DNA of 64,000 nucleotides from Limnoperna fortunei. Taxonomy: Eukaryota; Mollusca; Bivalvia; Mytilida; Modiolidae. Position 1 is the stretch's first letter. Every line of letters starts with the position of its first letter. The notes under the pieces are model-generated. The model was not told the DNA's origin. It saw nothing but the letters and a program-made list of their open reading frames with translations, and made no database searches. The stretch lies in NCBI GenBank assembly GCA_944474755.1, contig OX104113.1, positions 61,586,074 to 61,650,073 of the forward strand, in the 5' to 3' direction. Below are positions 1 to 22,086 of this stretch, in pieces. The position numbers and the translations under genes are program-made.

Positions 1-580
1 TTCTTGTGTTCAAAATTACACCAAAATTTGCCTGGCTTGATGTAAAATATCAGAATAAAATACAGAAAAAAACTATTTAAGTCCTAATTTGTGCATAATT
101 ACGTAAATCAAAGGATTCGTTTAAAATGTACACAATTCATTATCGTACTTTTCTCGATTAAAAATCCACCAAATTGTCATTTCTCTTAAAATTACGAATT
201 TCAGTATGTAATTTTTGTGTTTTATACCAAATTTATTTCTTTTTTCCCTTTCAGCGAATTCGGTATATTTTTAATTATCTATTTCGTTTGTTTGTTTTTT
301 TTTTTTTCGTTTCTTTTATCGTAACCAATTTTTTAGTTTAACGTTTAATTTTTTCTATTTCTAATCTTTTTTTATGAAATATGTATTCCTCGAAATAATA
401 ATTAAATCAAATTGTTGTCTATTTGACAAATATCCCGTTATTAATTAACAAAGGTGTTTGACAATAAACACAAGCTGACGACACGAGACAGTTTTGACAA
501 TGGACCCGTGCTTTAAACTCAATTACTCTCTTATGTCAATCCTTTCTCAATTTCAGGTGTGTCAAAATGAGTGCTGGATG

Positions 581-587
581 TATATAA
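581..587 (+). promoter_or_regulatory. TATA box of array copy 1
   Basis: TATATAA lies 78 nt before the ATG. A TTCAGAA initiator-like sequence lies about 30 nt downstream. The same arrangement occurs in every copy at CDS start minus 78. Confidence 0.75.
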
Positions 588-658
588 CCAACCAAGTCAT
601 CGTTGATATTCAGAACTTGTTTCAACTTCAATAGTGCTAACACATCGAAATCAACACA

Positions 659-991
659 ATGAAAGCCAAAGTACAACAAAGATGCATCAACAAGAGGTCT
701 ACACTAGTAGACAGCGAGAAGCGCTTCAAAAGAGCTTGTGAACAGATAGTCCAGCTAAACTATACCTTAGATGCTCTTCAACAGAGATATAACAAAGCTA
801 AGAAAGACAACCACAAGTCGTTCAGATATTCACTTCGTCTACGTATAGCTGTTGTGGACGGCATGCGAAACATGTACTACGACTATGCCCATAAGAAAGC
901 GGAGGCTATAGCTGAACTCAGACAGGAACTGTTTGGAGAAGTAGTTGACATCGTAGCTGATGAACCTTCAGACATCGAGATGTACGATTAA
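659..991 (+). CDS. 110-aa basic/acidic protein of unknown family, array copy 1
   Basis: I do not recognise this protein; all 24 copies are identical. By charge it is bipolar: residues 1-80 carry 20 Lys/Arg against 7 Asp/Glu, and residues 81-110 carry one Arg against ten acidic residues, ending in DIEMYD. Residues 16-50 and 53-95 look strongly helical, probably coiled or bundled. Cysteines are at 9 and 27. There is no signal peptide or membrane segment. The start is the first ATG after a TATA box (581-587), with an initiator-like TTCAGAA near 612 giving a ~47-nt leader. The coding region has no intron. A histone-type stem-loop (1022-1037) follows the stop. Size, charge, absence of introns, tandem repetition and 3' end are all histone-like, but there is no histone-fold or H1 winged-helix signature. 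A chromatin or S-phase role is inference only. This copy's spacer has the longest T-run (13 T) and a CTATTTCT variant. Confidence 0.85.
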   Translation: MKAKVQQRCINKRSTLVDSEKRFKRACEQIVQLNYTLDALQQRYNKAKKDNHKSFRYSLRLRIAVVDGMRNMYYDYAHKKAEAIAELRQELFGEVVDIVADEPSDIEMYD

Positions 992-1021
992 CTTTTGATG
1001 ATGAAGAACACTTCTAAAAAC

Positions 1022-1037
1022 GGTTCTTTTCAGAGCC
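1022..1037 (+). promoter_or_regulatory. Histone-type 3' stem-loop of array copy 1
   Basis: The 16-nt GGTTCTTTTCAGAGCC folds as a 6-bp stem (one G-U pair) with a UUUC loop, and is followed by ACACACA. This matches the animal replication-dependent histone mRNA 3' stem-loop bound by SLBP, apart from the G-U pair. It starts 31 nt after the stop codon, a normal distance for histone mRNAs. The same element lies at CDS end +31 to +46 in all 24 copies. Confidence 0.88.
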
Positions 1038-1049
1038 ACACACATTTTT

Positions 1050-1058
1050 CAAAAAGAG
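1050..1058 (+). promoter_or_regulatory. Candidate histone downstream element (U7 snRNA target), copy 1
   Basis: CAAAAAGAG begins 13 nt after the stem-loop. It resembles the purine-rich histone downstream element (CAAGAAAGA-like) that pairs with U7 snRNA. Position and composition both fit, and it is repeated in every copy. Confidence 0.7.
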
Positions 1059-1900
1059 TCTATATTGTTGTTACACTTTTTCCAACTTATCCCGTTCTTC
1101 TCTTGTTATTTATTTTAAAGCTTCACAGAAATAATTTCACCGAATATTTTTTTTAGAGAAACCAAATTTTCTGAAATTCAAAACGAAATTGAACGATTTC
1201 GTCATTTTTGTTTTATTTTCAAACTTCGGACATCTTGTAATATTTTCTTGTGTTCAAAATTACACCAAAATTTGCCTGGCTTGATGTAAAATATCAGAAT
1301 AAAATACAGAAAAAAACTATTTAAGTCCTAATTTGTGCATAATTACGTAAATCAAAGGATTCGTTTAAAATGTACACAATTCATTATCGTACTTTTCTCG
1401 ATTAAAAATCCACCAAATTGTCATTTCTCTTAAAATTACGAATTTCAGTATGTAATTTTTGTGTTTTATACCAAATTTATTTCTTTTTTCCCTTTCAGCG
1501 AATTCGGTATATTTTTAATTATCTATTTCGTTTGTTTGTTTTTTTTTTTCGTTTCTTTTATCGTAACCAATTTTTTAGTTTAACGTTTAATTTTTTCTAT
1601 TACTAATCTTTTTTTATGAAATATGTATTCCTCGAAATAATAATTAAATCAAATTGTTGTCTATTTGACAAATATCCCGTTATTAATTAACAAAGGTGTT
1701 TGACAATAAACACAAGCTGACGACACGAGACAGTTTTGACAATGGACCCGTGCTTTAAACTCAATTACTCTCTTATGTCAATCCTTTCTCAATTTCAGGT
1801 GTGTCAAAATGAGTGCTGGATGTATATAACCAACCAAGTCATCGTTGATATTCAAAACTTGTTTCAACTTCAATAGTGCTAACACATCGAAATCAACACA

Positions 1901-2233
1901 ATGAAAGCCAAAGTACAACAAAGATGCATCAACAAGAGGTCTACACTAGTAGACAGCGAGAAGCGCTTCAAAAGAGCTTGTGAACAGATAGTCCAGCTAA
2001 ACTATACCTTAGATGCTCTTCAACAGAGATATAACAAAGCTAAGAAAGACAACCACAAGTCGTTCAGATATTCACTTCGTCTACGTATAGCTGTTGTGGA
2101 CGGCATGCGAAACATGTACTACGACTATGCCCATAAGAAAGCGGAGGCTATAGCTGAACTCAGACAGGAACTGTTTGGAGAAGTAGTTGACATCGTAGCT
2201 GATGAACCTTCAGACATCGAGATGTACGATTAA
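1901..2233 (+). CDS. 110-aa array protein, copy 2
   Basis: Same protein as copy 1. TATA box 1823-1829; stem-loop 2264-2279. The leader reads ATTCAAAAC rather than ATTCAGAAC, and the spacer has CTATTACTAAT. Confidence 0.85.
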   Translation: MKAKVQQRCINKRSTLVDSEKRFKRACEQIVQLNYTLDALQQRYNKAKKDNHKSFRYSLRLRIAVVDGMRNMYYDYAHKKAEAIAELRQELFGEVVDIVADEPSDIEMYD

Positions 2234-3139
2234 CTTTTGATGATGAAGAACACTTCTAAAAACGGTTCTTTTCAGAGCCACACACATTTTTCAAAAAGAG
2301 TCTATATTGTTGTTACACTTTTTCCAACTTATCCCGTTCTTCTCTTGTTATTTATTTTAAAGCTTCACAGAAATAATTTCACCGAATATTTTTTTTAGAG
2401 AAACCAAATTTTCTGAAATTCAAAACGAAATTGAACGATTTCGTCATTTTTGTTTTATTTTCAAACTTCGGACATCTTGTAATATTTTCTTGTGTTCAAA
2501 ATTACACCAAAATTTGCCTGGCTTGATGTAAAATATCAGAATAAAATACAGAAAAAAACTATTTAAGTCCTAATTTGTGCATAATTACGTAAATCAAAGG
2601 ATTCGTTTAAAATGTACACAATTCATTATCGTACTTTTCTCGATTAAAAATCCACCAAATTGTCATTTCTCTTAAAATTACGAATTTCAGTATGTAATTT
2701 TTGTGTTTTATACCAAATTTATTTCTTTTTTCCCTTTCAGCGAATTCGGTATATTTTTAATTATCTATTTCGTTTGTTTGTTTTTTTTTCGTTTCTTTTA
2801 TCGTAACCAATTTTTTAGTTTAACGTTTAATTTTTTATATTACTAATCTTTTTTATGAAATATGTATTCCTCGAAATAATAATTAAATCAAATTGTTGTC
2901 TATTTGACAAATATCCCGTTATTAATTAACAAAGGTGTTTGACAATAAACACAAGCTGACGACACGAGACAGTTTTGACAATGGACCCGTGCTTTAAACT
3001 CAATTACTCTCTTATGTCAATCCTTTCTCAATTTCAGGTGTGTCAAAATGAGTGCTGGATGTATATAACCAACCAAGTCATCGTTGATATTCAAAACTTG
3101 TTTCAACTTCAATAGTGCTAACACATCGAAATCAACACA

Positions 3140-3472
3140 ATGAAAGCCAAAGTACAACAAAGATGCATCAACAAGAGGTCTACACTAGTAGACAGCGAGA
3201 AGCGCTTCAAAAGAGCTTGTGAACAGATAGTCCAGCTAAACTATACCTTAGATGCTCTTCAACAGAGATATAACAAAGCTAAGAAAGACAACCACAAGTC
3301 GTTCAGATATTCACTTCGTCTACGTATAGCTGTTGTGGACGGCATGCGAAACATGTACTACGACTATGCCCATAAGAAAGCGGAGGCTATAGCTGAACTC
3401 AGACAGGAACTGTTTGGAGAAGTAGTTGACATCGTAGCTGATGAACCTTCAGACATCGAGATGTACGATTAA
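3140..3472 (+). CDS. 110-aa array protein, copy 3
   Basis: Same protein as copy 1. TATA box 3062-3068; stem-loop 3503-3518. Leader variant ATTCAAAAC, shared with copies 2 and 4. The spacer after it has ACGAAATTTT instead of ACCAAATTTT. Confidence 0.85.
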   Translation: MKAKVQQRCINKRSTLVDSEKRFKRACEQIVQLNYTLDALQQRYNKAKKDNHKSFRYSLRLRIAVVDGMRNMYYDYAHKKAEAIAELRQELFGEVVDIVADEPSDIEMYD

Positions 3473-4378
3473 CTTTTGATGATGAAGAACACTTCTAAAA
3501 ACGGTTCTTTTCAGAGCCACACACATTTTTCAAAAAGAGTCTATATTGTTGTTACACTTTTTCCAACTTATCCCGTTCTTCTCTTGTTATTTATTTTAAA
3601 GCTTCACAGAAATAATTTCACCGAATATTTTTTTTAGAGAAACGAAATTTTCTGAAATTCAAAACGAAATTGAACGATTTCGTCATTTTTGTTTTATTTT
3701 CAAACTTCGGACATCTTGTAATATTTTCTTGTGTTCAAAATTACACCAAAATTTGCCTGGCTTGATGTAAAATATCAGAATAAAATACAGAAAAAAACTA
3801 TTTAAGTCCTAATTTGTGCATAATTACGTAAATCAAAGGATTCGTTTAAAATGTACACAATTCATTATCGTACTTTTCTCGATTAAAAATCCACCAAATT
3901 GTCATTTCTCTTAAAATTACGAATTTCAGTATGTAATTTTTGTGTTTTATACCAAATTTATTTCTTTTTTCCCTTTCAGCGAATTCGGTATATTTTTAAT
4001 TATCTATTTCGTTTGTTTGTTTTTTTTTCGTTTCTTTTATCGTAACCAATTTTTTAGTTTAACGTTTAATTTTTTATATTACTAATCTTTTTTATGAAAT
4101 ATGTATTCCTCGAAATAATAATTAAATCAAATTGTTGTCTATTTGACAAATATCCCGTTATTAATTAACAAAGGTGTTTGACAATAAACACAAGCTGACG
4201 ACACGAGACAGTTTTGACAATGGACCCGTGCTTTAAACTCAATTACTCTCTTATGTCAATCCTTTCTCAATTTCAGGTGTGTCAAAATGAGTGCTGGATG
4301 TATATAACCAACCAAGTCATCGTTGATATTCAAAACTTGTTTCAACTTCAATAGTGCTAACACATCGAAATCAACACA

Positions 4379-4711
4379 ATGAAAGCCAAAGTACAACAAA
4401 GATGCATCAACAAGAGGTCTACACTAGTAGACAGCGAGAAGCGCTTCAAAAGAGCTTGTGAACAGATAGTCCAGCTAAACTATACCTTAGATGCTCTTCA
4501 ACAGAGATATAACAAAGCTAAGAAAGACAACCACAAGTCGTTCAGATATTCACTTCGTCTACGTATAGCTGTTGTGGACGGCATGCGAAACATGTACTAC
4601 GACTATGCCCATAAGAAAGCGGAGGCTATAGCTGAACTCAGACAGGAACTGTTTGGAGAAGTAGTTGACATCGTAGCTGATGAACCTTCAGACATCGAGA
4701 TGTACGATTAA
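4379..4711 (+). CDS. 110-aa array protein, copy 4
   Basis: Same protein as copy 1. TATA box 4301-4307; stem-loop 4742-4757. Last copy with the ATTCAAAAC leader. Confidence 0.85.
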   Translation: MKAKVQQRCINKRSTLVDSEKRFKRACEQIVQLNYTLDALQQRYNKAKKDNHKSFRYSLRLRIAVVDGMRNMYYDYAHKKAEAIAELRQELFGEVVDIVADEPSDIEMYD

Positions 4712-5621
4712 CTTTTGATGATGAAGAACACTTCTAAAAACGGTTCTTTTCAGAGCCACACACATTTTTCAAAAAGAGTCTATATTGTTGTTACACTTTT
4801 TCCAACTTATCCCGTTCTTCTCTTGTTATTTATTTTAAAGCTTCACAGAAATAATTTCACCGAATATTTTTTTTAGAGAAACCAAATTTTCTGAAATTCA
4901 AAACGAAATTGAACGATTTCGTCATTTTTGTTTTATTTTCAAACTTCGGACATCTTGTAATATTTTCTTGTGTTCAAAATTACACCAAAATTTGCCTGGC
5001 TTGATGTAAAATATCAGAATAAAATACAGAAAAAAACTATTTAAGTCCTAATTTGTGCATAATTACGTAAATCAAAGGATTCGTTTAAAATGTACACAAT
5101 TCATTATCGTACTTTTCTCGATTAAAAATCCACCAAATTGTCATTTCTCTTAAAATTACGAATTTCAGTATGTAATTTTTGTGTTTTATACCAAATTTAT
5201 TTCTTTTTTCCCTTTCAGCGAATTCGGTATATTTTTAATTATCTATTTCGTTTGTTTGTTTTTTTTTTTTCGTTTCTTTTATCGTAACCAATATTTTAGT
5301 TTAACGTTTAATTTTTTATATTACTAATCTTTTTTTATGAAATATGTATTCCTCGAAATAATAATTAAATCAAATTGTTGTCTATTTGACAAATATCCCG
5401 TTATTAATTAACAAAGGTGTTTGACAATAAACACAAGCTGACGACACGAGACAGTTTTGACAATGGACCCGTGCTTTAAACTCAATTACTCTCTTATGTC
5501 AATCCTTTCTCAATTTCAGGTGTGTCAAAATGAGTGCTGGATGTATATAACCAACCAAGTCATCGTTGATATTCAGAACTTGTTTCAACTTCAATAGTGC
5601 TAACACATCGAAATCAACACA

Positions 5622-5954
5622 ATGAAAGCCAAAGTACAACAAAGATGCATCAACAAGAGGTCTACACTAGTAGACAGCGAGAAGCGCTTCAAAAGAGCTT
5701 GTGAACAGATAGTCCAGCTAAACTATACCTTAGATGCTCTTCAACAGAGATATAACAAAGCTAAGAAAGACAACCACAAGTCGTTCAGATATTCACTTCG
5801 TCTACGTATAGCTGTTGTGGACGGCATGCGAAACATGTACTACGACTATGCCCATAAGAAAGCGGAGGCTATAGCTGAACTCAGACAGGAACTGTTTGGA
5901 GAAGTAGTTGACATCGTAGCTGATGAACCTTCAGACATCGAGATGTACGATTAA
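5622..5954 (+). CDS. 110-aa array protein, copy 5
   Basis: Same protein as copy 1. TATA box 5544-5550; stem-loop 5985-6000. Its spacer has a private CAATATTTTAG variant and a longer T-run. Confidence 0.85.
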   Translation: MKAKVQQRCINKRSTLVDSEKRFKRACEQIVQLNYTLDALQQRYNKAKKDNHKSFRYSLRLRIAVVDGMRNMYYDYAHKKAEAIAELRQELFGEVVDIVADEPSDIEMYD

Positions 5955-6861
5955 CTTTTGATGATGAAGAACACTTCTAAAAACGGTTCTTTTCAGAGCC
6001 ACACACATTTTTCAAAAAGAGTCTATATTGTTGTTACACTTTTTCCAACTTATCCCGTTCTTCTCTTGTTATTTATTTTAAAGCTTCACAGAAATAATTT
6101 CACCGAATATTTTTTTTAGAGAAACCAAATTTTCTGAAATTCAAAACGAAATTGAACGATTTCGTCATTTTTGTTTTATTTTCAAACTTCGGACATCTTG
6201 TAATATTTTCTTGTGTTCAAAATTACACCAAAATTTGCCTGGCTTGATGTAAATATCAGAATAAAATACAGAAAAAAACTATTTAAGTCCTAATTTGTGC
6301 ATAATTACGTAAATCAAAGGATTCGTTTAAAATGTACACAATTCATTATCGTACTTTTCTCGATTAAAAATCCACCAAATTGTCATTTCTCTTAAAATTA
6401 CGAATTTCAGTATGTAATTTTTGTGTTTTATACCAAATTTATTTCTTTTTTCCCTTTCAGCGAATTCGGTATATTTATAATTATCTATTTCGTTTGTTTG
6501 TTTGTTTTTTTCGTTTCTTTTATCGTAACCAATTTTTTAGTTTAACGTTTAATTTTTTATATTACTAATCTTTTTTATGAAATATGTATTCCTCGAAATA
6601 ATAATTAAATCAAATTGTTGTCTATTTGACAAATATCCCGTTATTAATTAACAAAGGTGTTTGACAATAAACACAAGCTGACGACACGAGACAGTTTTGA
6701 CAATGGACCCGTGCTTTAAACTCAATTACTCTCTTATGTCAATCCTTTCTCAATTTCAGGTGTGTCAAAATGAGTGCTGGATGTATATAACCAACCAAGT
6801 CATCGTTGATATTCAGAACTTGTTTCAACTTCAATAGTGCTAACACATCGAAATCAACACA

Positions 6862-7194
6862 ATGAAAGCCAAAGTACAACAAAGATGCATCAACAAGAGG
6901 TCTACACTAGTAGACAGCGAGAAGCGCTTCAAAAGAGCTTGTGAACAGATAGTCCAGCTAAACTATACCTTAGATGCTCTTCAACAGAGATATAACAAAG
7001 CTAAGAAAGACAACCACAAGTCGTTCAGATATTCACTTCGTCTACGTATAGCTGTTGTGGACGGCATGCGAAACATGTACTACGACTATGCCCATAAGAA
7101 AGCGGAGGCTATAGCTGAACTCAGACAGGAACTGTTTGGAGAAGTAGTTGACATCGTAGCTGATGAACCTTCAGACATCGAGATGTACGATTAA
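6862..7194 (+). CDS. 110-aa array protein, copy 6
   Basis: Same protein as copy 1. TATA box 6784-6790; stem-loop 7225-7240. Its spacer has private changes: one A lost in GATGTAAATATC, TATTTATAATT, and an extra GTTT in the T-run. Confidence 0.85.
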   Translation: MKAKVQQRCINKRSTLVDSEKRFKRACEQIVQLNYTLDALQQRYNKAKKDNHKSFRYSLRLRIAVVDGMRNMYYDYAHKKAEAIAELRQELFGEVVDIVADEPSDIEMYD

Positions 7195-8101
7195 CTTTTG
7201 ATGATGAAGAACACTTCTAAAAACGGTTCTTTTCAGAGCCACACACATTTTTCAAAAAGAGTCTATATTGTTGTTACACTTTTTCCAACTTATCCCGTTC
7301 TTCTCTTGTTATTTATTTTAAAGCTTCACAGAAATAATTTCACCGAATATTTTTTTTAGAGAAACCAAATTTTCTGAAATTCAAAACGAAATTGAACGAT
7401 TTCGTCATTTTTGTTTTATTTTCAAACTTCGGACATCTTGTAATATTTTCTTGTGTTCAAAATTACACCAAAATTTGCCTGGCTTGATGTAAAATATCAG
7501 AATAAAATACAGAAAAAAACTATTTAAGTCCTAATTTGTGCATAATTACGTAAATCAAAGGATTCGTTTAAAATGTACACAATTCATTATCGTACTTTTC
7601 TCGATTAAAAATCCACCAAATTGTCATTTCTCTTAAAATTACGAATTTCAGTATGTAATTTTTGTGTTTTATACCAAATTTATTTCTTTTTTCCCTTTCA
7701 GCGAATTCGGTATATTTTTAATTATCTATTTCGTTTGTTTGTTTTTTTTTTCGTTTCTTTTATCGTAACCAATTTTTTAGTTTAACGTTTAATTTTTTAT
7801 ATTACTAATCTTTTTTATGAAATATGTATTCCTCGAAATAATAATTAAATCAAATTGTTGTCTATTTGACAAATATCCCGTTATTAATTAACAAAGGTGT
7901 TTGACAATAAACACAAGCTGACGACACGAGACAGTTTTGACAATGGACCCGTGCTTTAAACTCAATTACTCTCTTATGTCAATCCTTTCTCAATTTCAGG
8001 TGTGTCAAAATGAGTGCTGGATGTATATAACCAACCAAGTCATCGTTGATATTCAGAACTTGTTTCAACTTCAATAGTGCTAACACATCGAAATCAACAC
8101 A

Positions 8102-8434
8102 ATGAAAGCCAAAGTACAACAAAGATGCATCAACAAGAGGTCTACACTAGTAGACAGCGAGAAGCGCTTCAAAAGAGCTTGTGAACAGATAGTCCAGCTA
8201 AACTATACCTTAGATGCTCTTCAACAGAGATATAACAAAGCTAAGAAAGACAACCACAAGTCGTTCAGATATTCACTTCGTCTACGTATAGCTGTTGTGG
8301 ACGGCATGCGAAACATGTACTACGACTATGCCCATAAGAAAGCGGAGGCTATAGCTGAACTCAGACAGGAACTGTTTGGAGAAGTAGTTGACATCGTAGC
8401 TGATGAACCTTCAGACATCGAGATGTACGATTAA
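8102..8434 (+). CDS. 110-aa array protein, copy 7
   Basis: Same protein as copy 1. TATA box 8024-8030; stem-loop 8465-8480. The spacer is close to the array consensus. Confidence 0.85.
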   Translation: MKAKVQQRCINKRSTLVDSEKRFKRACEQIVQLNYTLDALQQRYNKAKKDNHKSFRYSLRLRIAVVDGMRNMYYDYAHKKAEAIAELRQELFGEVVDIVADEPSDIEMYD

Positions 8435-9343
8435 CTTTTGATGATGAAGAACACTTCTAAAAACGGTTCTTTTCAGAGCCACACACATTTTTCAAAAAGA
8501 GTCTATATTGTTGTTACACTTTTTCCAACTTATCCCGTTCTTCTCTTGTTATTTATTTTAAAGCTTCACAGAAATAATTTCACCGAATATTTTTTTTAGA
8601 GAAACCAAATTTTCTGAAATTCAAAACGAAATTGAACGATTTCGTCATTTTTGTTTTATTTTCAAACTTCGGACATCTTGTAATATTTTCTTGTGTTCAA
8701 AATTACACCAAAATTTGCCTGGCTTGATGTAAAATATCAGAATAAAATACAGAAAAAACTATTTAAGTCCTAATTTGTGCATAATTACGTAAATCAAAGG
8801 ATTCGTTTAAAATGTACACAATTCATTATCGTACTTTTCTCGATTAAAAATCCACCAAATTGTCATTTCTCTTAAAATTACGAATTTCAGTATGTAATTT
8901 TTGTGTTTTATACCAAATTTATTTCTTTTTTCCCTCTCAGCGAATTCGGTATATTTTTAATTATCTATTTCGTTTGTTTGTTTTTTTTTTTTTCGTTTCT
9001 TTTATCGTAACCAATTTTTTAGTTTAACGTTTAATTTTTTATATTACTAATCTTTTTTATGAAATATGTATTCCTCGAAATAATAATTAAATCAAATTGT
9101 TGTCTATTTGACAAATATCCCGTTATTAATTAACAAAGGTGTTTGACAATAAACACAAGCTGACGACACGAGACAGTTTTGACAATGGACCCGTGCTTTA
9201 AACTCAATTACTCTCTTATGTCAATCCTTTCTCAATTTCAGGTGTGTCAAAATGAGTGCTGGATGTATATAACCAACCAAGTCATCGTTGATATTCAGAA
9301 CTTGTTTCAACTTCAATAGTGCTAACACATCGAAATCAACACA

Positions 9344-9676
9344 ATGAAAGCCAAAGTACAACAAAGATGCATCAACAAGAGGTCTACACTAGTAGACAGC
9401 GAGAAGCGCTTCAAAAGAGCTTGTGAACAGATAGTCCAGCTAAACTATACCTTAGATGCTCTTCAACAGAGATATAACAAAGCTAAGAAAGACAACCACA
9501 AGTCGTTCAGATATTCACTTCGTCTACGTATAGCTGTTGTGGACGGCATGCGAAACATGTACTACGACTATGCCCATAAGAAAGCGGAGGCTATAGCTGA
9601 ACTCAGACAGGAACTGTTTGGAGAAGTAGTTGACATCGTAGCTGATGAACCTTCAGACATCGAGATGTACGATTAA
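9344..9676 (+). CDS. 110-aa array protein, copy 8
   Basis: Same protein as copy 1. TATA box 9266-9272; stem-loop 9707-9722. The spacer has CCCTCTCAG, a long T-run and one A fewer in the A-run. It is the first of a run (copies 8-13) followed by ACGAAATTTT. Confidence 0.85.
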   Translation: MKAKVQQRCINKRSTLVDSEKRFKRACEQIVQLNYTLDALQQRYNKAKKDNHKSFRYSLRLRIAVVDGMRNMYYDYAHKKAEAIAELRQELFGEVVDIVADEPSDIEMYD

Positions 9677-10583
9677 CTTTTGATGATGAAGAACACTTCT
9701 AAAAACGGTTCTTTTCAGAGCCACACACATTTTTCAAAAAGAGTCTATATTGTTGTTACACTTTTTCCAACTTATCCCGTTCTTCTCTTGTTATTTATTT
9801 TAAAGCTTCACAGAAATAATTTCACCGAATATTTTTTTTAGAGAAACGAAATTTTCTGAAATTCAAAACGAAATTGAACGATTTCGTCATTTTTGTTTTA
9901 TTTTCAAACTTCGGACATCTTGTAATATTTTCTTGTGTTCAAAATTACACCAAAATTTGCCTGGCTTGATGTAAAATATCAGAATAAAATACAGAAAAAA
10001 ACTATTTAAGTCCTAATTTGTGCATAATTACGTAAATCAAAGGATTCGTTTAAAATGTACACAATTCATTATCGTACTTTTCTCGATTAAAAATCCACCA
10101 AATTGTCATTTCTCTTAAAATTACGAATTTCAGTATGTAATTTTTGTGTTTTATACCAAATTTATTTCTTTTTTCCCTTTCAGCGAATTCGGTATATTTT
10201 TAATTATCTATTTCGTTTGTTTGTTTTTTTTTTCGTTTCTTTTATCGTAACCAATTTTTTAGTTTAACGTTTAATTTTTTATATTACTAATCTTTTTTAT
10301 GAAATATGTATTCCTCGAAATAATAATTAAATCAAATTGTTGTCTATTTGACAAATATCCCGTTATTAATTAACAAAGGTGTTTGACAATAAACACAAGC
10401 TGACGACACGAGACAGTTTTGACAATGGACTCGTGCTTTAAACTCAATTACTCTCTTATGTCAATCCTTTCTCAATTTCAGGTGTGTCAAAATGAGTGCT
10501 GGATGTATATAACCAACCAAGTCATCGTTGATATTCAGAACTTGTTTCAACTTCAATAGTGCTAACACATCGAAATCAACACA

Positions 10584-10916
10584 ATGAAAGCCAAAGTACA
10601 ACAAAGATGCATCAACAAGAGGTCTACACTAGTAGACAGCGAGAAGCGCTTCAAAAGAGCTTGTGAACAGATAGTCCAGCTAAACTATACCTTAGATGCT
10701 CTTCAACAGAGATATAACAAAGCTAAGAAAGACAACCACAAGTCGTTCAGATATTCACTTCGTCTACGTATAGCTGTTGTGGACGGCATGCGAAACATGT
10801 ACTACGACTATGCCCATAAGAAAGCGGAGGCTATAGCTGAACTCAGACAGGAACTGTTTGGAGAAGTAGTTGACATCGTAGCTGATGAACCTTCAGACAT
10901 CGAGATGTACGATTAA
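10584..10916 (+). CDS. 110-aa array protein, copy 9
   Basis: Same protein as copy 1. TATA box 10506-10512; stem-loop 10947-10962. The upstream spacer carries GACTCGTGC instead of GACCCGTGC, a marker seen again before copies 14, 18 and 23. Confidence 0.85.
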   Translation: MKAKVQQRCINKRSTLVDSEKRFKRACEQIVQLNYTLDALQQRYNKAKKDNHKSFRYSLRLRIAVVDGMRNMYYDYAHKKAEAIAELRQELFGEVVDIVADEPSDIEMYD

Positions 10917-11823
10917 CTTTTGATGATGAAGAACACTTCTAAAAACGGTTCTTTTCAGAGCCACACACATTTTTCAAAAAGAGTCTATATTGTTGTTACA
11001 CTTTTTCCAACTTATCCCGTTCTTCTCTTGTTATTTATTTTAAAGCTTCACAGAAATAATTTCACCGAATATTTTTTTTAGAGAAACGAAATTTTCTGAA
11101 ATTCAAAACGAAATTGAACGATTTCGTCATTTTTGTTTTATTTTCAAACTTCGGACATCTTGTAATATTTTCTTGTGTTCAAAATTACACCAAAATTTGC
11201 CTGGCTTGATGTAAAATATCAGAATAAAATACAGAAAAAAACTATTTAAGTCCTAATTTGTGCATAATTACGTAAATCAAAGGATTCGTTTAAAATGTAC
11301 ACAATTCATTATCGTACTTTTCTCGATTAAAAATCCACCAAATTGTCATTTCTCTTAAAATTACGAATTTCAGTATGTAATTTTTGTGTTTTATACCAAA
11401 TTTATTTCTTTTTTCCCTTTCAGCGAATTCGGTATATTTTTAATTATCTATTTCGTTTGTTTGTTTTTTTTTTCGTTTCTTTTATCGTAACCAATTTTTT
11501 AGTTTAACGTTTAATTTTTTATATTACTAATCTTTTTTATGAAATATGTATTCCTCGAAATAATAATTAAATCAAATTGTTGTCTATTTGACAAATATCC
11601 CGTTATTAATTAACAAAGGTGTTTGACAATAAACACAAGCTGACGACACGAGACAGTTTTGACAATGGACCCGTGCTTTAAACTCAATTACTCTCTTATG
11701 TCAATCCTTTCTCAATTTCAGGTGTGTCAAAATGAGTGCTGGATGTATATAACCAACCAAGTCATCGTTGATATTCAGAACTTGTTTCAACTTCAATAGT
11801 GCTAACACATCGAAATCAACACA

Positions 11824-12156
11824 ATGAAAGCCAAAGTACAACAAAGATGCATCAACAAGAGGTCTACACTAGTAGACAGCGAGAAGCGCTTCAAAAGAGC
11901 TTGTGAACAGATAGTCCAGCTAAACTATACCTTAGATGCTCTTCAACAGAGATATAACAAAGCTAAGAAAGACAACCACAAGTCGTTCAGATATTCACTT
12001 CGTCTACGTATAGCTGTTGTGGACGGCATGCGAAACATGTACTACGACTATGCCCATAAGAAAGCGGAGGCTATAGCTGAACTCAGACAGGAACTGTTTG
12101 GAGAAGTAGTTGACATCGTAGCTGATGAACCTTCAGACATCGAGATGTACGATTAA
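11824..12156 (+). CDS. 110-aa array protein, copy 10
   Basis: Same protein as copy 1. TATA box 11746-11752; stem-loop 12187-12202. Spacer of CCCTTTCAG/GACCCG type. Confidence 0.85.
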   Translation: MKAKVQQRCINKRSTLVDSEKRFKRACEQIVQLNYTLDALQQRYNKAKKDNHKSFRYSLRLRIAVVDGMRNMYYDYAHKKAEAIAELRQELFGEVVDIVADEPSDIEMYD

Positions 12157-13066
12157 CTTTTGATGATGAAGAACACTTCTAAAAACGGTTCTTTTCAGAG
12201 CCACACACATTTTTCAAAAAGAGTCTATATTGTTGTTACACTTTTTCCAACTTATCCCGTTCTTCTCTTGTTATTTATTTTAAAGCTTCACAGAAATAAT
12301 TTCACCGAATATTTTTTTTAGAGAAACGAAATTTTCTGAAATTCAAAACGAAATTGAACGATTTCGTCATTTTTGTTTTATTTTCAAACTTCGGACATCT
12401 TGTAATATTTTCTTGTGTTCAAAATTACACCAAAATTTGCCTGGCTTGATGTAAAATATCAGAATAAAATACAGAAAAAAACTATTTAAGTCCTAATTTG
12501 TGCATAATTACGTAAATCAAAGGATTCGTTTAAAATGTACACAATTCATTATCGTACTTTTCTCGATTAAAAATCCACCAAATTGTCATTTCTCTTAAAA
12601 TTACGAATTTCAGTATGTAATTTTTGTGTTTTATACCAAATTTATTTCTTTTTTCCCTCTCAGCGAATTCGGTATATTTTTAATTATCTATTTCGTTTGT
12701 TTGTTTTTTTTTTTTTCGTTTCTTTTATCGTAACCAATTTTTTAGTTTAACGTTTAATTTTTTATATTACTAATCTTTTTTATGAAATATGTATTCCTCG
12801 AAATAATAATTAAATCAAATTGTTGTCTATTTGACAAATATCCCGTTATTAATTAACAAAGGTGTTTGACAATAAACACAAGCTGACGACACGAGACAGT
12901 TTTGACAATGGACCCGTGCTTTAAACTCAATTACTCTCTTATGTCAATCCTTTCTCAATTTCAGGTGTGTCAAAATGAGTGCTGGATGTATATAACCAAC
13001 CAAGTCATCGTTGATATTCAGAACTTGTTTCAACTTCAATAGTGCTAACACATCGAAATCAACACA

Positions 13067-13399
13067 ATGAAAGCCAAAGTACAACAAAGATGCATCAACA
13101 AGAGGTCTACACTAGTAGACAGCGAGAAGCGCTTCAAAAGAGCTTGTGAACAGATAGTCCAGCTAAACTATACCTTAGATGCTCTTCAACAGAGATATAA
13201 CAAAGCTAAGAAAGACAACCACAAGTCGTTCAGATATTCACTTCGTCTACGTATAGCTGTTGTGGACGGCATGCGAAACATGTACTACGACTATGCCCAT
13301 AAGAAAGCGGAGGCTATAGCTGAACTCAGACAGGAACTGTTTGGAGAAGTAGTTGACATCGTAGCTGATGAACCTTCAGACATCGAGATGTACGATTAA
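13067..13399 (+). CDS. 110-aa array protein, copy 11
   Basis: Same protein as copy 1. TATA box 12989-12995; stem-loop 13430-13445. CCCTCTCAG spacer with a long T-run, paired with copy 12. Confidence 0.85.
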   Translation: MKAKVQQRCINKRSTLVDSEKRFKRACEQIVQLNYTLDALQQRYNKAKKDNHKSFRYSLRLRIAVVDGMRNMYYDYAHKKAEAIAELRQELFGEVVDIVADEPSDIEMYD

Positions 13400-14309
13400 C
13401 TTTTGATGATGAAGAACACTTCTAAAAACGGTTCTTTTCAGAGCCACACACATTTTTCAAAAAGAGTCTATATTGTTGTTACACTTTTTCCAACTTATCC
13501 CGTTCTTCTCTTGTTATTTATTTTAAAGCTTCACAGAAATAATTTCACCGAATATTTTTTTTAGAGAAACGAAATTTTCTGAAATTCAAAACGAAATTGA
13601 ACGATTTCGTCATTTTTGTTTTATTTTCAAACTTCGGACATCTTGTAATATTTTCTTGTGTTCAAAATTACACCAAAATTTGCCTGGCTTGATGTAAAAT
13701 ATCAGAATAAAATACAGAAAAAAACTATTTAAGTCCTAATTTGTGCATAATTACGTAAATCAAAGGATTCGTTTAAAATGTACACAATTCATTATCGTAC
13801 TTTTCTCGATTAAAAATCCACCAAATTGTCATTTCTCTTAAAATTACGAATTTCAGTATGTAATTTTTGTGTTTTATACCAAATTTATTTCTTTTTTCCC
13901 TCTCAGCGAATTCGGTATATTTTTAATTATCTATTTCGTTTGTTTGTTTTTTTTTTTTTCGTTTCTTTTATCGTAACCAATTTTTTAGTTTAACGTTTAA
14001 TTTTTTATATTACTAATCTTTTTTATGAAATATGTATTCCTCGAAATAATAATTAAATCAAATTGTTGTCTATTTGACAAATATCCCGTTATTAATTAAC
14101 AAAGGTGTTTGACAATAAACACAAGCTGACGACACGAGACAGTTTTGACAATGGACCCGTGCTTTAAACTCAATTACTCTCTTATGTCAATCCTTTCTCA
14201 ATTTCAGGTGTGTCAAAATGAGTGCTGGATGTATATAACCAACCAAGTCATCGTTGATATTCAGAACTTGTTTCAACTTCAATAGTGCTAACACATCGAA
14301 ATCAACACA

Positions 14310-14642
14310 ATGAAAGCCAAAGTACAACAAAGATGCATCAACAAGAGGTCTACACTAGTAGACAGCGAGAAGCGCTTCAAAAGAGCTTGTGAACAGATAG
14401 TCCAGCTAAACTATACCTTAGATGCTCTTCAACAGAGATATAACAAAGCTAAGAAAGACAACCACAAGTCGTTCAGATATTCACTTCGTCTACGTATAGC
14501 TGTTGTGGACGGCATGCGAAACATGTACTACGACTATGCCCATAAGAAAGCGGAGGCTATAGCTGAACTCAGACAGGAACTGTTTGGAGAAGTAGTTGAC
14601 ATCGTAGCTGATGAACCTTCAGACATCGAGATGTACGATTAA
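14310..14642 (+). CDS. 110-aa array protein, copy 12
   Basis: Same protein as copy 1. TATA box 14232-14238; stem-loop 14673-14688. CCCTCTCAG spacer, same type as copy 11. Confidence 0.85.
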   Translation: MKAKVQQRCINKRSTLVDSEKRFKRACEQIVQLNYTLDALQQRYNKAKKDNHKSFRYSLRLRIAVVDGMRNMYYDYAHKKAEAIAELRQELFGEVVDIVADEPSDIEMYD

Positions 14643-15549
14643 CTTTTGATGATGAAGAACACTTCTAAAAACGGTTCTTTTCAGAGCCACACACATTTTT
14701 CAAAAAGAGTCTATATTGTTGTTACACTTTTTCCAACTTATCCCGTTCTTCTCTTGTTATTTATTTTAAAGCTTCACAGAAATAATTTCACCGAATATTT
14801 TTTTTAGAGAAACGAAATTTTCTGAAATTCAAAACGAAATTGAACGATTTCGTCATTTTTGTTTTATTTTCAAACTTCGGACATCTTGTAATATTTTCTT
14901 GTGTTCAAAATTACACCAAAATTTGCCTGGCTTGATGTAAAATATCAGAATAAAATACAGAAAAAAACTATTTAAGTCCTAATTTGTGCATAATTACGTA
15001 AATCAAAGGATTCGTTTAAAATGTACACAATTCATTATCGTACTTTTCTCGATTAAAAATCCACCAAATTGTCATTTCTCTTAAAATTACGAATTTCAGT
15101 ATGTAATTTTTGTGTTTTATACCAAATTTATTTCTTTTTTCCCTTTCAGCGAATTCGGTATATTTTTAATTATCTATTTCGTTTGTTTGTTTTTTTTTTC
15201 GTTTCTTTTATCGTAACCAATTTTTTAGTTTAACGTTTAATTTTTTATATTACTAATCTTTTTTATGAAATATGTATTCCTCGAAATAATAATTAAATCA
15301 AATTGTTGTCTATTTGACAAATATCCCGTTATTAATTAACAAAGGTGTTTGACAATAAACACAAGCTGACGACACGAGACAGTTTTGACAATGGACCCGT
15401 GCTTTAAACTCAATTACTCTCTTATGTCAATCCTTTCTCAATTTCAGGTGTGTCAAAATGAGTGCTGGATGTATATAACCAACCAAGTCATCGTTGATAT
15501 TCAGAACTTGTTTCAACTTCAATAGTGCTAACACATCGAAATCAACACA

Positions 15550-15882
15550 ATGAAAGCCAAAGTACAACAAAGATGCATCAACAAGAGGTCTACACTAGTA
15601 GACAGCGAGAAGCGCTTCAAAAGAGCTTGTGAACAGATAGTCCAGCTAAACTATACCTTAGATGCTCTTCAACAGAGATATAACAAAGCTAAGAAAGACA
15701 ACCACAAGTCGTTCAGATATTCACTTCGTCTACGTATAGCTGTTGTGGACGGCATGCGAAACATGTACTACGACTATGCCCATAAGAAAGCGGAGGCTAT
15801 AGCTGAACTCAGACAGGAACTGTTTGGAGAAGTAGTTGACATCGTAGCTGATGAACCTTCAGACATCGAGATGTACGATTAA
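15550..15882 (+). CDS. 110-aa array protein, copy 13
   Basis: Same protein as copy 1. TATA box 15472-15478; stem-loop 15913-15928. Spacer of CCCTTTCAG/GACCCG type. Confidence 0.85.
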   Translation: MKAKVQQRCINKRSTLVDSEKRFKRACEQIVQLNYTLDALQQRYNKAKKDNHKSFRYSLRLRIAVVDGMRNMYYDYAHKKAEAIAELRQELFGEVVDIVADEPSDIEMYD

Positions 15883-16789
15883 CTTTTGATGATGAAGAAC
15901 ACTTCTAAAAACGGTTCTTTTCAGAGCCACACACATTTTTCAAAAAGAGTCTATATTGTTGTTACACTTTTTCCAACTTATCCCGTTCTTCTCTTGTTAT
16001 TTATTTTAAAGCTTCACAGAAATAATTTCACCGAATATTTTTTTTAGAGAAACGAAATTTTCTGAAATTCAAAACGAAATTGAACGATTTCGTCATTTTT
16101 GTTTTATTTTCAAACTTCGGACATCTTGTAATATTTTCTTGTGTTCAAAATTACACCAAAATTTGCCTGGCTTGATGTAAAATATCAGAATAAAATACAG
16201 AAAAAAACTATTTAAGTCCTAATTTGTGCATAATTACGTAAATCAAAGGATTCGTTTAAAATGTACACAATTCATTATCGTACTTTTCTCGATTAAAAAT
16301 CCACCAAATTGTCATTTCTCTTAAAATTACGAATTTCAGTATGTAATTTTTGTGTTTTATACCAAATTTATTTCTTTTTTCCCTTTCAGCGAATTCGGTA
16401 TATTTTTAATTATCTATTTCGTTTGTTTGTTTTTTTTTTCGTTTCTTTTATCGTAACCAATTTTTTAGTTTAACGTTTAATTTTTTATATTACTAATCTT
16501 TTTTATGAAATATGTATTCCTCGAAATAATAATTAAATCAAATTGTTGTCTATTTGACAAATATCCCGTTATTAATTAACAAAGGTGTTTGACAATAAAC
16601 ACAAGCTGACGACACGAGACAGTTTTGACAATGGACTCGTGCTTTAAACTCAATTACTCTCTTATGTCAATCCTTTCTCAATTTCAGGTGTGTCAAAATG
16701 AGTGCTGGATGTATATAACCAACCAAGTCATCGTTGATATTCAGAACTTGTTTCAACTTCAATAGTGCTAACACATCGAAATCAACACA

Positions 16790-17122
16790 ATGAAAGCCAA
16801 AGTACAACAAAGATGCATCAACAAGAGGTCTACACTAGTAGACAGCGAGAAGCGCTTCAAAAGAGCTTGTGAACAGATAGTCCAGCTAAACTATACCTTA
16901 GATGCTCTTCAACAGAGATATAACAAAGCTAAGAAAGACAACCACAAGTCGTTCAGATATTCACTTCGTCTACGTATAGCTGTTGTGGACGGCATGCGAA
17001 ACATGTACTACGACTATGCCCATAAGAAAGCGGAGGCTATAGCTGAACTCAGACAGGAACTGTTTGGAGAAGTAGTTGACATCGTAGCTGATGAACCTTC
17101 AGACATCGAGATGTACGATTAA
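16790..17122 (+). CDS. 110-aa array protein, copy 14
   Basis: Same protein as copy 1. TATA box 16712-16718; stem-loop 17153-17168. GACTCG marker upstream, five units after copy 9. Confidence 0.85.
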   Translation: MKAKVQQRCINKRSTLVDSEKRFKRACEQIVQLNYTLDALQQRYNKAKKDNHKSFRYSLRLRIAVVDGMRNMYYDYAHKKAEAIAELRQELFGEVVDIVADEPSDIEMYD

Positions 17123-18029
17123 CTTTTGATGATGAAGAACACTTCTAAAAACGGTTCTTTTCAGAGCCACACACATTTTTCAAAAAGAGTCTATATTGTT
17201 GTTACACTTTTTCCAACTTATCCCGTTCTTCTCTTGTTATTTATTTTAAAGCTTCACAGAAATAATTTCACCGAATATTTTTTTTAGAGAAACCAAATTT
17301 TCTGAAATTCAAAACGAAATTGAACGATTTCGTCATTTTTGTTTTATTTTCAAACTTCGGACATCTTGTAATATTTTCTTGTGTTCAAAATTACACCAAA
17401 ATTTGCCTGGCTTGATGTAAAATATCAGAATAAAATACAGAAAAAAACTATTTAAGTCCTAATTTGTGCATAATTACGTAAATCAAAGGATTCGTTTAAA
17501 ATGTACACAATTCATTATCGTACTTTTCTCGATTAAAAATCCACCAAATTGTCATTTCTCTTAAAATTACGAATTTCAGTATGTAATTTTTGTGTTTTAT
17601 ACCAAATTTATTTCTTTTTTCCCTTTCAGCGAATTCGGTATATTTTTAATTATCTATTTCGTTTGTTTGTTTTTTTTTTCGTTTCTTTTATCGTAACCAA
17701 TTTTTTAGTTTAACGTTTAATTTTTTATATTACTAATCTTTTTTATGAAATATGTATTCCTCGAAATAATAATTAAATCAAATTGTTGTCTATTTGACAA
17801 ATATCCCGTTATTAATTAACAAAGGTGTTTGACAATAAACACAAGCTGACGACACGAGACAGTTTTGACAATGGACCCGTGCTTTAAACTCAATTACTCT
17901 CTTATGTCAATCCTTTCTCAATTTCAGGTGTGTCAAAATGAGTGCTGGATGTATATAACCAACCAAGTCATCGTTGATATTCAGAACTTGTTTCAACTTC
18001 AATAGTGCTAACACATCGAAATCAACACA

Positions 18030-18362
18030 ATGAAAGCCAAAGTACAACAAAGATGCATCAACAAGAGGTCTACACTAGTAGACAGCGAGAAGCGCTTCAA
18101 AAGAGCTTGTGAACAGATAGTCCAGCTAAACTATACCTTAGATGCTCTTCAACAGAGATATAACAAAGCTAAGAAAGACAACCACAAGTCGTTCAGATAT
18201 TCACTTCGTCTACGTATAGCTGTTGTGGACGGCATGCGAAACATGTACTACGACTATGCCCATAAGAAAGCGGAGGCTATAGCTGAACTCAGACAGGAAC
18301 TGTTTGGAGAAGTAGTTGACATCGTAGCTGATGAACCTTCAGACATCGAGATGTACGATTAA
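18030..18362 (+). CDS. 110-aa array protein, copy 15
   Basis: Same protein as copy 1. TATA box 17952-17958; stem-loop 18393-18408. First unit of the five-unit block 15-19, which is repeated as 20-24. Confidence 0.85.
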   Translation: MKAKVQQRCINKRSTLVDSEKRFKRACEQIVQLNYTLDALQQRYNKAKKDNHKSFRYSLRLRIAVVDGMRNMYYDYAHKKAEAIAELRQELFGEVVDIVADEPSDIEMYD

Positions 18363-19271
18363 CTTTTGATGATGAAGAACACTTCTAAAAACGGTTCTTT
18401 TCAGAGCCACACACATTTTTCAAAAAGAGTCTATATTGTTGTTACACTTTTTCCAACTTATCCCGTTCTTCTCTTGTTATTTATTTTAAAGCTTCACAGA
18501 AATAATTTCACCGAATATTTTTTTTAGAGAAACCAAATTTTCTGAAATTCAAAACGAAATTGAACGATTTCGTCATTTTTGTTTTATTTTCAAACTTCGG
18601 ACATCTTGTAATATTTTCTTGTGTTCAAAATTACACCAAAATTTGCCTGGCTTGATGTAAAATATCAGAATAAAATACAGAAAAAAACTATTTAAGTCCT
18701 AATTTGTGCATAATTACGTAAATCAAAGGATTCGTTTAAAATGTACACAATTCATTATCGTACTTTTCTCGATTAAAAATCCACCAAATTGTCATTTCTC
18801 TTAAAATTACGAATTTCAGTATGTAATTTTTGTGTTTTATACCAAATTTATTTCTTTTTTCCCTCTCAGCGAATTCGGTATATTTTTAATTATCTATTTC
18901 GTTTGTTTGTTTTTTTTTTTTCGTTTCTTTTATCGTAACCAATTTTTTAGTTTAACGTTTAATTTTTTATATTACTAATCTTTTTTATGAAATATGTATT
19001 CCTCGAAATAATAATTAAATCAAATTGTTGTCTATTTGACAAATATCCCGTTATTAATTAACAAAGGTGTTTGACAATAAACACAAGCTGACGACACGAG
19101 ACAGTTTTGACAATGGACCCGTGCTTTAAACTCAATTACTCTCTTATGTCAATCCTTTCTCAATTTCAGGTGTGTCAAAATGAGTGCTGGATGTATATAA
19201 CCAACCAAGTCATCGTTGATATTCAGAACTTGTTTCAACTTCAATAGTGCTAACACATCGAAATCAACACA

Positions 19272-19604
19272 ATGAAAGCCAAAGTACAACAAAGATGCAT
19301 CAACAAGAGGTCTACACTAGTAGACAGCGAGAAGCGCTTCAAAAGAGCTTGTGAACAGATAGTCCAGCTAAACTATACCTTAGATGCTCTTCAACAGAGA
19401 TATAACAAAGCTAAGAAAGACAACCACAAGTCGTTCAGATATTCACTTCGTCTACGTATAGCTGTTGTGGACGGCATGCGAAACATGTACTACGACTATG
19501 CCCATAAGAAAGCGGAGGCTATAGCTGAACTCAGACAGGAACTGTTTGGAGAAGTAGTTGACATCGTAGCTGATGAACCTTCAGACATCGAGATGTACGA
19601 TTAA
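19272..19604 (+). CDS. 110-aa array protein, copy 16
   Basis: Same protein as copy 1. TATA box 19194-19200; stem-loop 19635-19650. CCCTCTCAG spacer; counterpart of copy 21. Confidence 0.85.
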   Translation: MKAKVQQRCINKRSTLVDSEKRFKRACEQIVQLNYTLDALQQRYNKAKKDNHKSFRYSLRLRIAVVDGMRNMYYDYAHKKAEAIAELRQELFGEVVDIVADEPSDIEMYD

Positions 19605-20513
19605 CTTTTGATGATGAAGAACACTTCTAAAAACGGTTCTTTTCAGAGCCACACACATTTTTCAAAAAGAGTCTATATTGTTGTTACACTTTTTCCAACT
19701 TATCCCGTTCTTCTCTTGTTATTTATTTTAAAGCTTCACAGAAATAATTTCACCGAATATTTTTTTTAGAGAAACCAAATTTTCTGAAATTCAAAACGAA
19801 ATTGAACGATTTCGTCATTTTTGTTTTATTTTCAAACTTCGGACATCTTGTAATATTTTCTTGTGTTCAAAATTACACCAAAATTTGCCTGGCTTGATGT
19901 AAAATATCAGAATAAAATACAGAAAAAAACTATTTAAGTCCTAATTTGTGCATAATTACGTAAATCAAAGGATTCGTTTAAAATGTACACAATTCATTAT
20001 CGTACTTTTCTCGATTAAAAATCCACCAAATTGTCATTTCTCTTAAAATTACGAATTTCAGTATGTAATTTTTGTGTTTTATACCAAATTTATTTCTTTT
20101 TTCCCTCTCAGCGAATTCGGTATATTTTTAATTATCTATTTCGTTTGTTTGTTTTTTTTTTTTCGTTTCTTTTATCGTAACCAATTTTTTAGTTTAACGT
20201 TTAATTTTTTATATTACTAATCTTTTTTATGAAATATGTATTCCTCGAAATAATAATTAAATCAAATTGTTGTCTATTTGACAAATATCCCGTTATTAAT
20301 TAACAAAGGTGTTTGACAATAAACACAAGCTGACGACACGAGACAGTTTTGACAATGGACCCGTGCTTTAAACTCAATTACTCTCTTATGTCAATCCTTT
20401 CTCAATTTCAGGTGTGTCAAAATGAGTGCTGGATGTATATAACCAACCAAGTCATCGTTGATATTCAGAACTTGTTTCAACTTCAATAGTGCTAACACAT
20501 CGAAATCAACACA

Positions 20514-20846
20514 ATGAAAGCCAAAGTACAACAAAGATGCATCAACAAGAGGTCTACACTAGTAGACAGCGAGAAGCGCTTCAAAAGAGCTTGTGAACAG
20601 ATAGTCCAGCTAAACTATACCTTAGATGCTCTTCAACAGAGATATAACAAAGCTAAGAAAGACAACCACAAGTCGTTCAGATATTCACTTCGTCTACGTA
20701 TAGCTGTTGTGGACGGCATGCGAAACATGTACTACGACTATGCCCATAAGAAAGCGGAGGCTATAGCTGAACTCAGACAGGAACTGTTTGGAGAAGTAGT
20801 TGACATCGTAGCTGATGAACCTTCAGACATCGAGATGTACGATTAA
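20514..20846 (+). CDS. 110-aa array protein, copy 17
   Basis: Same protein as copy 1. TATA box 20436-20442; stem-loop 20877-20892. CCCTCTCAG spacer; counterpart of copy 22. Confidence 0.85.
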   Translation: MKAKVQQRCINKRSTLVDSEKRFKRACEQIVQLNYTLDALQQRYNKAKKDNHKSFRYSLRLRIAVVDGMRNMYYDYAHKKAEAIAELRQELFGEVVDIVADEPSDIEMYD

Positions 20847-21753: not shown

Positions 21754-22086
21754 ATGAAAGCCAAAGTACAACAAAGATGCATCAACAAGAGGTCTACACT
21801 AGTAGACAGCGAGAAGCGCTTCAAAAGAGCTTGTGAACAGATAGTCCAGCTAAACTATACCTTAGATGCTCTTCAACAGAGATATAACAAAGCTAAGAAA
21901 GACAACCACAAGTCGTTCAGATATTCACTTCGTCTACGTATAGCTGTTGTGGACGGCATGCGAAACATGTACTACGACTATGCCCATAAGAAAGCGGAGG
22001 CTATAGCTGAACTCAGACAGGAACTGTTTGGAGAAGTAGTTGACATCGTAGCTGATGAACCTTCAGACATCGAGATGTACGATTAA
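21754..22086 (+). CDS. 110-aa array protein, copy 18
   Basis: Same protein as copy 1. TATA box 21676-21682; stem-loop 22117-22132. GACTCG marker upstream; counterpart of copy 23. Confidence 0.85.
   Translation: MKAKVQQRCINKRSTLVDSEKRFKRACEQIVQLNYTLDALQQRYNKAKKDNHKSFRYSLRLRIAVVDGMRNMYYDYAHKKAEAIAELRQELFGEVVDIVADEPSDIEMYD

Follow-up and report, generated by a model that had tools for sequence, protein, structure and literature searches.

The window analysed here is a stretch of 64,000 nt (C3:61586074-61650073) of the 1.335-Gb assembly of Limnoperna fortunei. Its left part holds the end of a tandem array on the + strand, in which 24 units follow one another at a spacing of 1239-1243 bp (CDS to CDS). 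Each unit contains a single open reading frame of at least 90 aa, the coding sequence (CDS) of a 110-aa protein, and this CDS is open and identical in DNA in all 24 window copies. Behind it lie a histone-type 3' hairpin (GGTTCTTTTCAGAGCC) and, further on, a block resembling a histone downstream element.

1..29849, + strand: the array's 24 units inside the window, 1239-1243 bp each (right edge judged from the sequence and approximate)
437..577, + strand: copy 1, promoter block with DNA-level conservation in relatives (E 4.6e-16 for 437-577, 2.4e-8 for 454-555)
581..587, + strand: TATATAA, 78 nt upstream of the ATG, which we take to be a TATA-box-like motif
659..991, + strand: CDS of copy 1, 110 aa
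1022..1037, + strand: histone-type 3' hairpin of copy 1, GGTTCTTTTCAGAGCC (exact sequence, RF00032)
1048..1072, + strand: histone-downstream-element block of copy 1, TTCAAAAAGAGTCTATATTGTTGTT (comparison with histone genes)
1901..2300, + strand: copy 2, CDS, hairpin and CAAAAAGAG
3140..3539, + strand: copy 3, CDS, hairpin and CAAAAAGAG
4379..4778, + strand: copy 4, CDS, hairpin and CAAAAAGAG
5622..6021, + strand: copy 5, CDS, hairpin and CAAAAAGAG
6862..7261, + strand: copy 6, CDS, hairpin and CAAAAAGAG
8102..8501, + strand: copy 7, CDS, hairpin and CAAAAAGAG
9344..9743, + strand: copy 8, CDS, hairpin and CAAAAAGAG
10584..10983, + strand: copy 9, CDS, hairpin and CAAAAAGAG
11824..12223, + strand: copy 10, CDS, hairpin and CAAAAAGAG
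13067..13466, + strand: copy 11, CDS, hairpin and CAAAAAGAG
14310..14709, + strand: copy 12, CDS, hairpin and CAAAAAGAG
15550..15949, + strand: copy 13, CDS, hairpin and CAAAAAGAG
16790..17189, + strand: copy 14, CDS, hairpin and CAAAAAGAG
18030..18429, + strand: copy 15, CDS, hairpin and CAAAAAGAG
19272..19671, + strand: copy 16, CDS, hairpin and CAAAAAGAG
20514..20913, + strand: copy 17, CDS, hairpin and CAAAAAGAG
21754..22153, + strand: copy 18, CDS, hairpin and CAAAAAGAG
22994..23393, + strand: copy 19, CDS, hairpin and CAAAAAGAG
24234..24633, + strand: copy 20, CDS, hairpin and CAAAAAGAG
25476..25875, + strand: copy 21, CDS, hairpin and CAAAAAGAG
26718..27117, + strand: copy 22, CDS, hairpin and CAAAAAGAG
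27958..28357, + strand: copy 23, CDS, hairpin and CAAAAAGAG
29198..29597, + strand: copy 24, the last of the array, CDS, hairpin and CAAAAAGAG
36648..36894, + strand: relic of the unit's 3' half, with a broken coding part and a recognisable hairpin (GGCTCATTTGAGAGCC) and downstream block

The array begins ~240 kb upstream of the window and comprises 214 full-length copies (alignments of at least 325 nt) over 269 kb, all on the + strand and with starts from C3:61346173 to 61615271, a count from which the true copy number may differ because one 200-N gap lies inside the array. The first-pass annotation, which had proposed an unrecognised non-histone tandem gene with histone-type 3' ends in at least 24 copies, is thus borne out by 24/24 copies in the window and by nearly all copies of the array, and it gains from the comparison with this genome's histone genes and from hairpin traces in relatives. 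When the genome was searched with the protein, all 150 scored copies (498 candidates) lay in this one array, and beyond it we met only one isolated copy and the relic, which sits ~7 kb past the array's end with a slightly altered hairpin (RF00032 score 18.1 bits, below the cut-off). The neighbours of the array are a gene with an HtrL_YibB domain (window 34280-35302, +) and exons of a radial spokehead-like protein (window 41988-42338 and 38692-39237, -).

Of the 214 array copies, 206 keep the CDS length, and 110 of these match the window copy exactly; damage is visible in ~20 of the 214 (stops, loss of the start or stop codon, one-base indels). In the array region the exact hairpin is found 208 times, and in 200 of these cases CAAAAAGAG follows at 12 nt. 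Variation among 205 of the 214 copies (nine with differing first 23 CDS bases were dropped) is greatest in the far spacer (0.0098 substitutions per site per copy), followed by the CDS (0.0036), the promoter block (0.0028) and the hairpin with its element (0.0017). Substitutions are equally frequent at the three codon positions (0.0035, 0.0040 and 0.0033), and single array copies therefore drift almost neutrally, a pattern in keeping with highly redundant copies under homogenisation and not in conflict with selection on the 110-aa family as a whole.

Hairpin, downstream element and the genome's own histone genes

The histone 3' hairpin follows a 16-nt consensus, GGYYYUUYUNARRRCC, with six base pairs. 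The hairpin of the 110-aa gene agrees with this consensus and with its six pairs in 24/24 window copies. GGTTCTTTTCAGAGCC occurs exactly 24 times in the window, once per copy; one further site with three mismatches lies at 36846, and shuffled sequence would give 0.30 sites with at most three mismatches. From the stop codon to the hairpin the distance is 30 nt, and from GGTTCTTTTCAGAGCC to CAAAAAGAG it is 12 nt, so that the order of elements described at first pass stands, but the spacings given there (31 and 13 nt) are each off by one. Aligned to RF00032, the Rfam model of the histone 3' UTR stem-loop, copy 1 scores 33.2 bits (E=1e-7 in 701 nt) and covers all 46 model positions; the alignment is complete, but the score is below the gathering score of 34, and a gathering scan of the whole window listed nothing for that reason. 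Genome-wide, two members of the 110-aa family do exceed the cut-off, an array copy (37.5 bits) and the isolated copy (34.5 bits). All 75 scored candidates of that search pass (a lower bound, from 251319 candidates), and the 75 divide, again as lower bounds, into 34 in histone-array ranges, 39 in a second family and the two of the 110-aa family. The same model gave one match in 14 control genomes, below the cut-off.

To place these signals beside those of the genome's own histone genes we used a histone H4 query, which returned 35 matches, in arrays on C2 (5138-bp period), C5, C98 and C168 and in a few other places. Eight genes were compared, namely H4, H3, H2A and H2B from one stretch each of two array types (C2 and C5). 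All eight end with GGCCCTTTTCAGGGCC and a block containing AAAAAGA. In the hairpin of the 110-aa gene two stem pairs are altered relative to GGCCCTTTTCAGGGCC, one from C-G to T-G and the other from C-G to T-A, and both can still pair. The downstream block begins 10 nt beyond the hairpin in the 110-aa gene and in 7/8 histone genes (11 nt in the remaining one). Over 26 nt it is closest to the H3 blocks of C5 (24/26) and C2 (23/26), followed by the two H2B blocks (22 on C5, and 21) and by the other four histones (18-19). A free search of 33 kb of other window DNA, with no fixed place, reached 17-19/26 at best, and because the last four histone blocks are about level with this background only the fixed offset and the four better blocks carry weight. 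Given this identity and the fixed offset, we take the block for the histone processing signal of this species rather than for a mere resemblance. The eight histone genes score 38.3-43.1 bits against RF00032, versus 33.2 for the window unit. Two observations on the histone genes themselves may be added: a gene of H4 type outside the histone arrays (G000:C8:53179119-53179430, -) shares just 81% identity with the H4 query, and the two histone stretches (L035, L036) contain H2A, H2B, H3 and H4, with no H1-like ORF of at least 85 aa listed in either.

The gene is thus like the replication-dependent core histone genes of metazoans, including those of its own genome, in its tandem arrangement, its uninterrupted CDS, the place of its hairpin (30 nt past the stop codon, 22-36 nt in the histones) and a purine-rich element that begins 10-11 nt past the hairpin and ranges from similar to almost the same in sequence. 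It is unlike them in encoding a product without a detected histone fold or histone sequence match, in forming a separate single-gene array on another contig, and in the two changed but still paired stem positions. In bivalves, one report describes the hairpin on histone mRNAs of Lucina (PMC6210712), and related literature includes PMC6303110, PMC5011920 and PMC12551290.

One U7 snRNA gene of this genome passes the cut-off (37.9 bits, E 6.9e-4), and the 14 control genomes gave no match. The 5' end of this U7 contains UCUCUUU, able to pair with AAAGAG of the 110-aa gene's element; the predicted duplex (-5.5 kcal/mol) is equalled by 141/1000 shuffles, and the corresponding figures for the histones' own elements are 68-743/1000, so that neither the 110-aa gene nor the histones as a set pair better than shuffled sequence.

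Upstream of the gene, conservation of ~140 bp of promoter at the DNA level is seen from P0038 and P0034, two homologs whose translated extensions align to it in different reading frames. Among the 19 extended homologs for which any alignment was listed only these two match strongly, and the rest are at chance level except P0116 (E 1.6e-5, other strand) and P0030 (0.006). Two 7-mers, GGATTGA and GATTGAA, are common to all eight histone promoters (230 bp). The former is also present in the promoter of the 110-aa gene, as it is in 73/2000 shuffles; GATTGAA and the 8-mer GGATTGAA, likewise found in 8/8 histone promoters, are absent from it.

Relatives, the isolated copy and the protein

Searches for homologs returned 134 matches with the single sequence and 402 and 569 with profiles, of which the best 120 were listed each time. 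Every listed match that carries a species name is from a bivalve (Mytilus edulis, Mizuhopecten yessoensis, Magallana gigas, Pinctada imbricata and Mya arenaria), and most of those listed bear no species. Across 49 aligned relatives the protein is 51-98% identical to the window copy. Some of the database entries have peculiarities of their own: P0145 and P0147 (Mya arenaria) are gene models with two domain copies, perhaps from annotation that joined tandem copies, and P0012, P0023, P0039 and P0055 have names such as 'mitochondrial fission protein ELM1' that are probably wrong automatic assignments.

Traces of the 3' end were sought in homologs whose predicted proteins read through past the usual C-terminus. 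For this, 24 of 168 fetched proteins were used, 20 chosen by a rule for long C-terminal extensions and four added by hand (P0101, P0103, P0112 and P0114, the last of which is a match). In 12/24 the extra peptide (e.g. KRLFSEP or NGSFQSHTYFSKR) allows the histone hairpin consensus, where shuffles lead us to expect 0.02; a different loop rule gives 11/24. These 12 are not independent, because several are near-identical relatives. Peptides such as IFFKK and YFSKR, which follow the hairpin peptides, would fit the downstream element. A full hairpin was not found in the other 12 read-through homologs. Seven of them have no trace of it, three (P0067, P0154, P0167) stop inside a hairpin-like start, P0141 is one codon off and P0163 has a stem mismatch.

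The isolated intact copy (L041; C3:63383790-63384330, minus strand) is 1.77 Mb from the array and 94.3% identical over 508 nt, with four amino-acid and ten silent differences. The resulting dN/dS of 0.09 (Fisher p 2.9e-5) shows directly that the protein has been under purifying selection between the array and this copy. Its hairpin is unchanged, and its element has shifted to the AAAAAGAATCTA form seen in 4/8 histone genes.

The protein was described at first pass as unrecognised and has stayed so in database searches: Pfam scans of 50 members at E up to 1 gave 27 families, and the 25 of them that were displayed include no histone family, the best match being an unrelated DUF (E 0.0032), and the family profile matched no PDB sequence at E up to 10. 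Modelled with AlphaFold2, two members each give a two-helix hairpin (mean pLDDT 87.8 and 85.5), for which Foldseek and VIA-align returned only generic helical hairpins, axonemal and ESCRT-III ones included. The body of the protein is basic (residues 1-92, pI 9.96) and its tail acidic (residues 93-110, pI 4.05). The tail resembles a SUMO-interacting motif (V-x-[IV]-[IV] and then Ser/acidic residues) in 129/137 homologs, with 8.1 expected in shuffled tails, a count over those of the 168 proteins that have an intact tail and over related, not independent, sequences; V96 is invariant in 50 aligned sequences. According to PMC8616421, such motifs have an hXhh core with a negative flank, as in IIVLSDSD of DAXX and in VVVI followed by Ser/acidic residues in PML. 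The hydrophobic core followed by Ser/acidic residues is shared with DAXX and PML and in the 110-aa family lies near the C-terminus, whereas the remainder is unrelated as far as compared, and SUMO binding is a prediction. In P0109, P0119 and P0120, which may form a second subfamily, the sequence has diverged and the helical core is kept, and the acidic SUMO-motif-like tail is absent.

A second family with the same 3' end

A second family, not related to the first and with a 686-codon open frame, has a histone-type hairpin and the same downstream element (L038, L039, L040), the stop codon lying 12 nt before GGCCCTTTT[A/C]AGGGCC. In L038 (C1:18291200-18292080) the protein occupies positions 3-764 and the hairpin 777-792; the last 253 residues of the L038 protein had no Pfam match. 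The genome contains ~40 near-identical copies, some with stops, which stand in tandem on C1, C7 and C15 (at 3.6-4.1 kb) and singly on many contigs, and distant relatives (~30% identical) form further tandem sets. The 39 of the 75 scored RF00032 matches that belong to this family (a lower bound) are directly downstream of its genes. It has the look of a family of repeats or mobile elements to which the histone 3' end is common. The statement made at first pass that such ends are in animals nearly confined to histones has to be amended for this genome, where a second multicopy family bears them. Since the 3' end is found on a dispersed repeat-like family as well, it need not mean a chromatin function.

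Expression of the gene and nature of its product

We consider it likely that the 214-copy array produces a replication-type, non-polyadenylated mRNA from a non-histone gene. What the sequence shows directly is the array itself, a hairpin and element on almost all copies, their agreement with eight histone genes of the genome in type, letters and spacing, a U7 gene, a family kept in bivalves with hairpin traces, and purifying selection between two loci. In such a model the mRNA would be made by the pathway of replication-dependent histone mRNAs: SLBP would bind the hairpin, cleavage would occur just after it, between hairpin and downstream element, and the transcript would probably have no poly(A) tail and be supplied in bulk during DNA replication, with S phase as the presumed time.

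What the product does is a separate question, for which the modelled basic helical hairpin and the SUMO-motif-like tail give no more than a hint of a role in chromatin or replication. An abundant nuclear adaptor that binds SUMO on replicating or new chromatin, with the two-helix hairpin as its basic part, is a tentative possibility. It is quite conceivable that the product is instead a bulk protein of S phase or the early embryo outside the nucleus, e.g. a cytoskeletal or egg-store coiled coil whose tail merely resembles a SUMO motif, a reading that concerns the protein and is compatible with a histone-type mRNA end. The generic structural matches, with their axonemal and ESCRT-III hairpins, and the missing tail of the divergent P0119 and P0120 are in keeping with it; the motif kept in 129/137 tails, the invariant V96 and the basic body argue against it.

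For the mRNA, one alternative is a pair of 3' ends as in H2A.X, for which both hairpin and poly(A) ending are described (PMC7807067). The transcript would then be hairpin-ended in dividing cells and polyadenylated otherwise, via the first AATAAA, 261 nt beyond the hairpin of copy 1. We regard this as rather unlikely. Hexamers are indeed present at window 1298 and 1705, and a possible downstream AATAAA is what the gene would share with H2A.X-type genes; however, they lie far past the hairpin and towards the next unit, and they would be expected by chance because the unit is AT-rich. Unlike H2A.X, the product is a non-histone, and the poly(A) site is putative.

It is improbable that we are dealing with a selfish or satellite-like repeat which acquired a histone 3' end, either as a passenger or as a means for the repeat RNA to escape polyadenylation, and that the protein of the array matters little to the host. 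With the same hairpin and element on tandem and dispersed copies of that family, such ends evidently travel on repeats here, and the equal variability of codon positions and the broken copies within the array would agree with such an origin. Against it are the dN/dS of the isolated intact copy, the conservation of the protein among relatives that include five named bivalve species, the confinement of all scored copies to a single array, beside which only an isolated copy and a relic came up, and the 24 identical, open CDSs of the window. That the protein is a diverged histone or linker-histone relative is hardly credible, as its histone-like size, tandem arrangement and 3' end are set against the Pfam and PDB results and against predicted models of two long helices with neither histone fold nor winged helix.

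In the boldest reading, bivalves would possess a histone-type, non-polyadenylated programme for non-histones that takes in a conserved 110-aa SUMO-binding nuclear protein, produced by hundreds of tandem genes as DNA replicates, and in this genome the 686-codon family, with SLBP and U7 serving a 'replication regulon' and not only histones, an idea that we put somewhat short of probable. The main reason for caution is the second, repeat-like family, as it shares the signal and the histone 3' end is consequently no badge of chromatin proteins in this genome. A conserved non-histone family with a histone-type 3' end would nonetheless break the rule that such ends are nearly confined to histones. 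It would mean that bivalves have a protein, probably abundant in dividing cells, that would escape poly(A)-selected RNA-seq, and it would be an experiment made by nature on the hairpin alone, which might tie whatever coding region it follows to S phase, stabilise the message in eggs, or do both.
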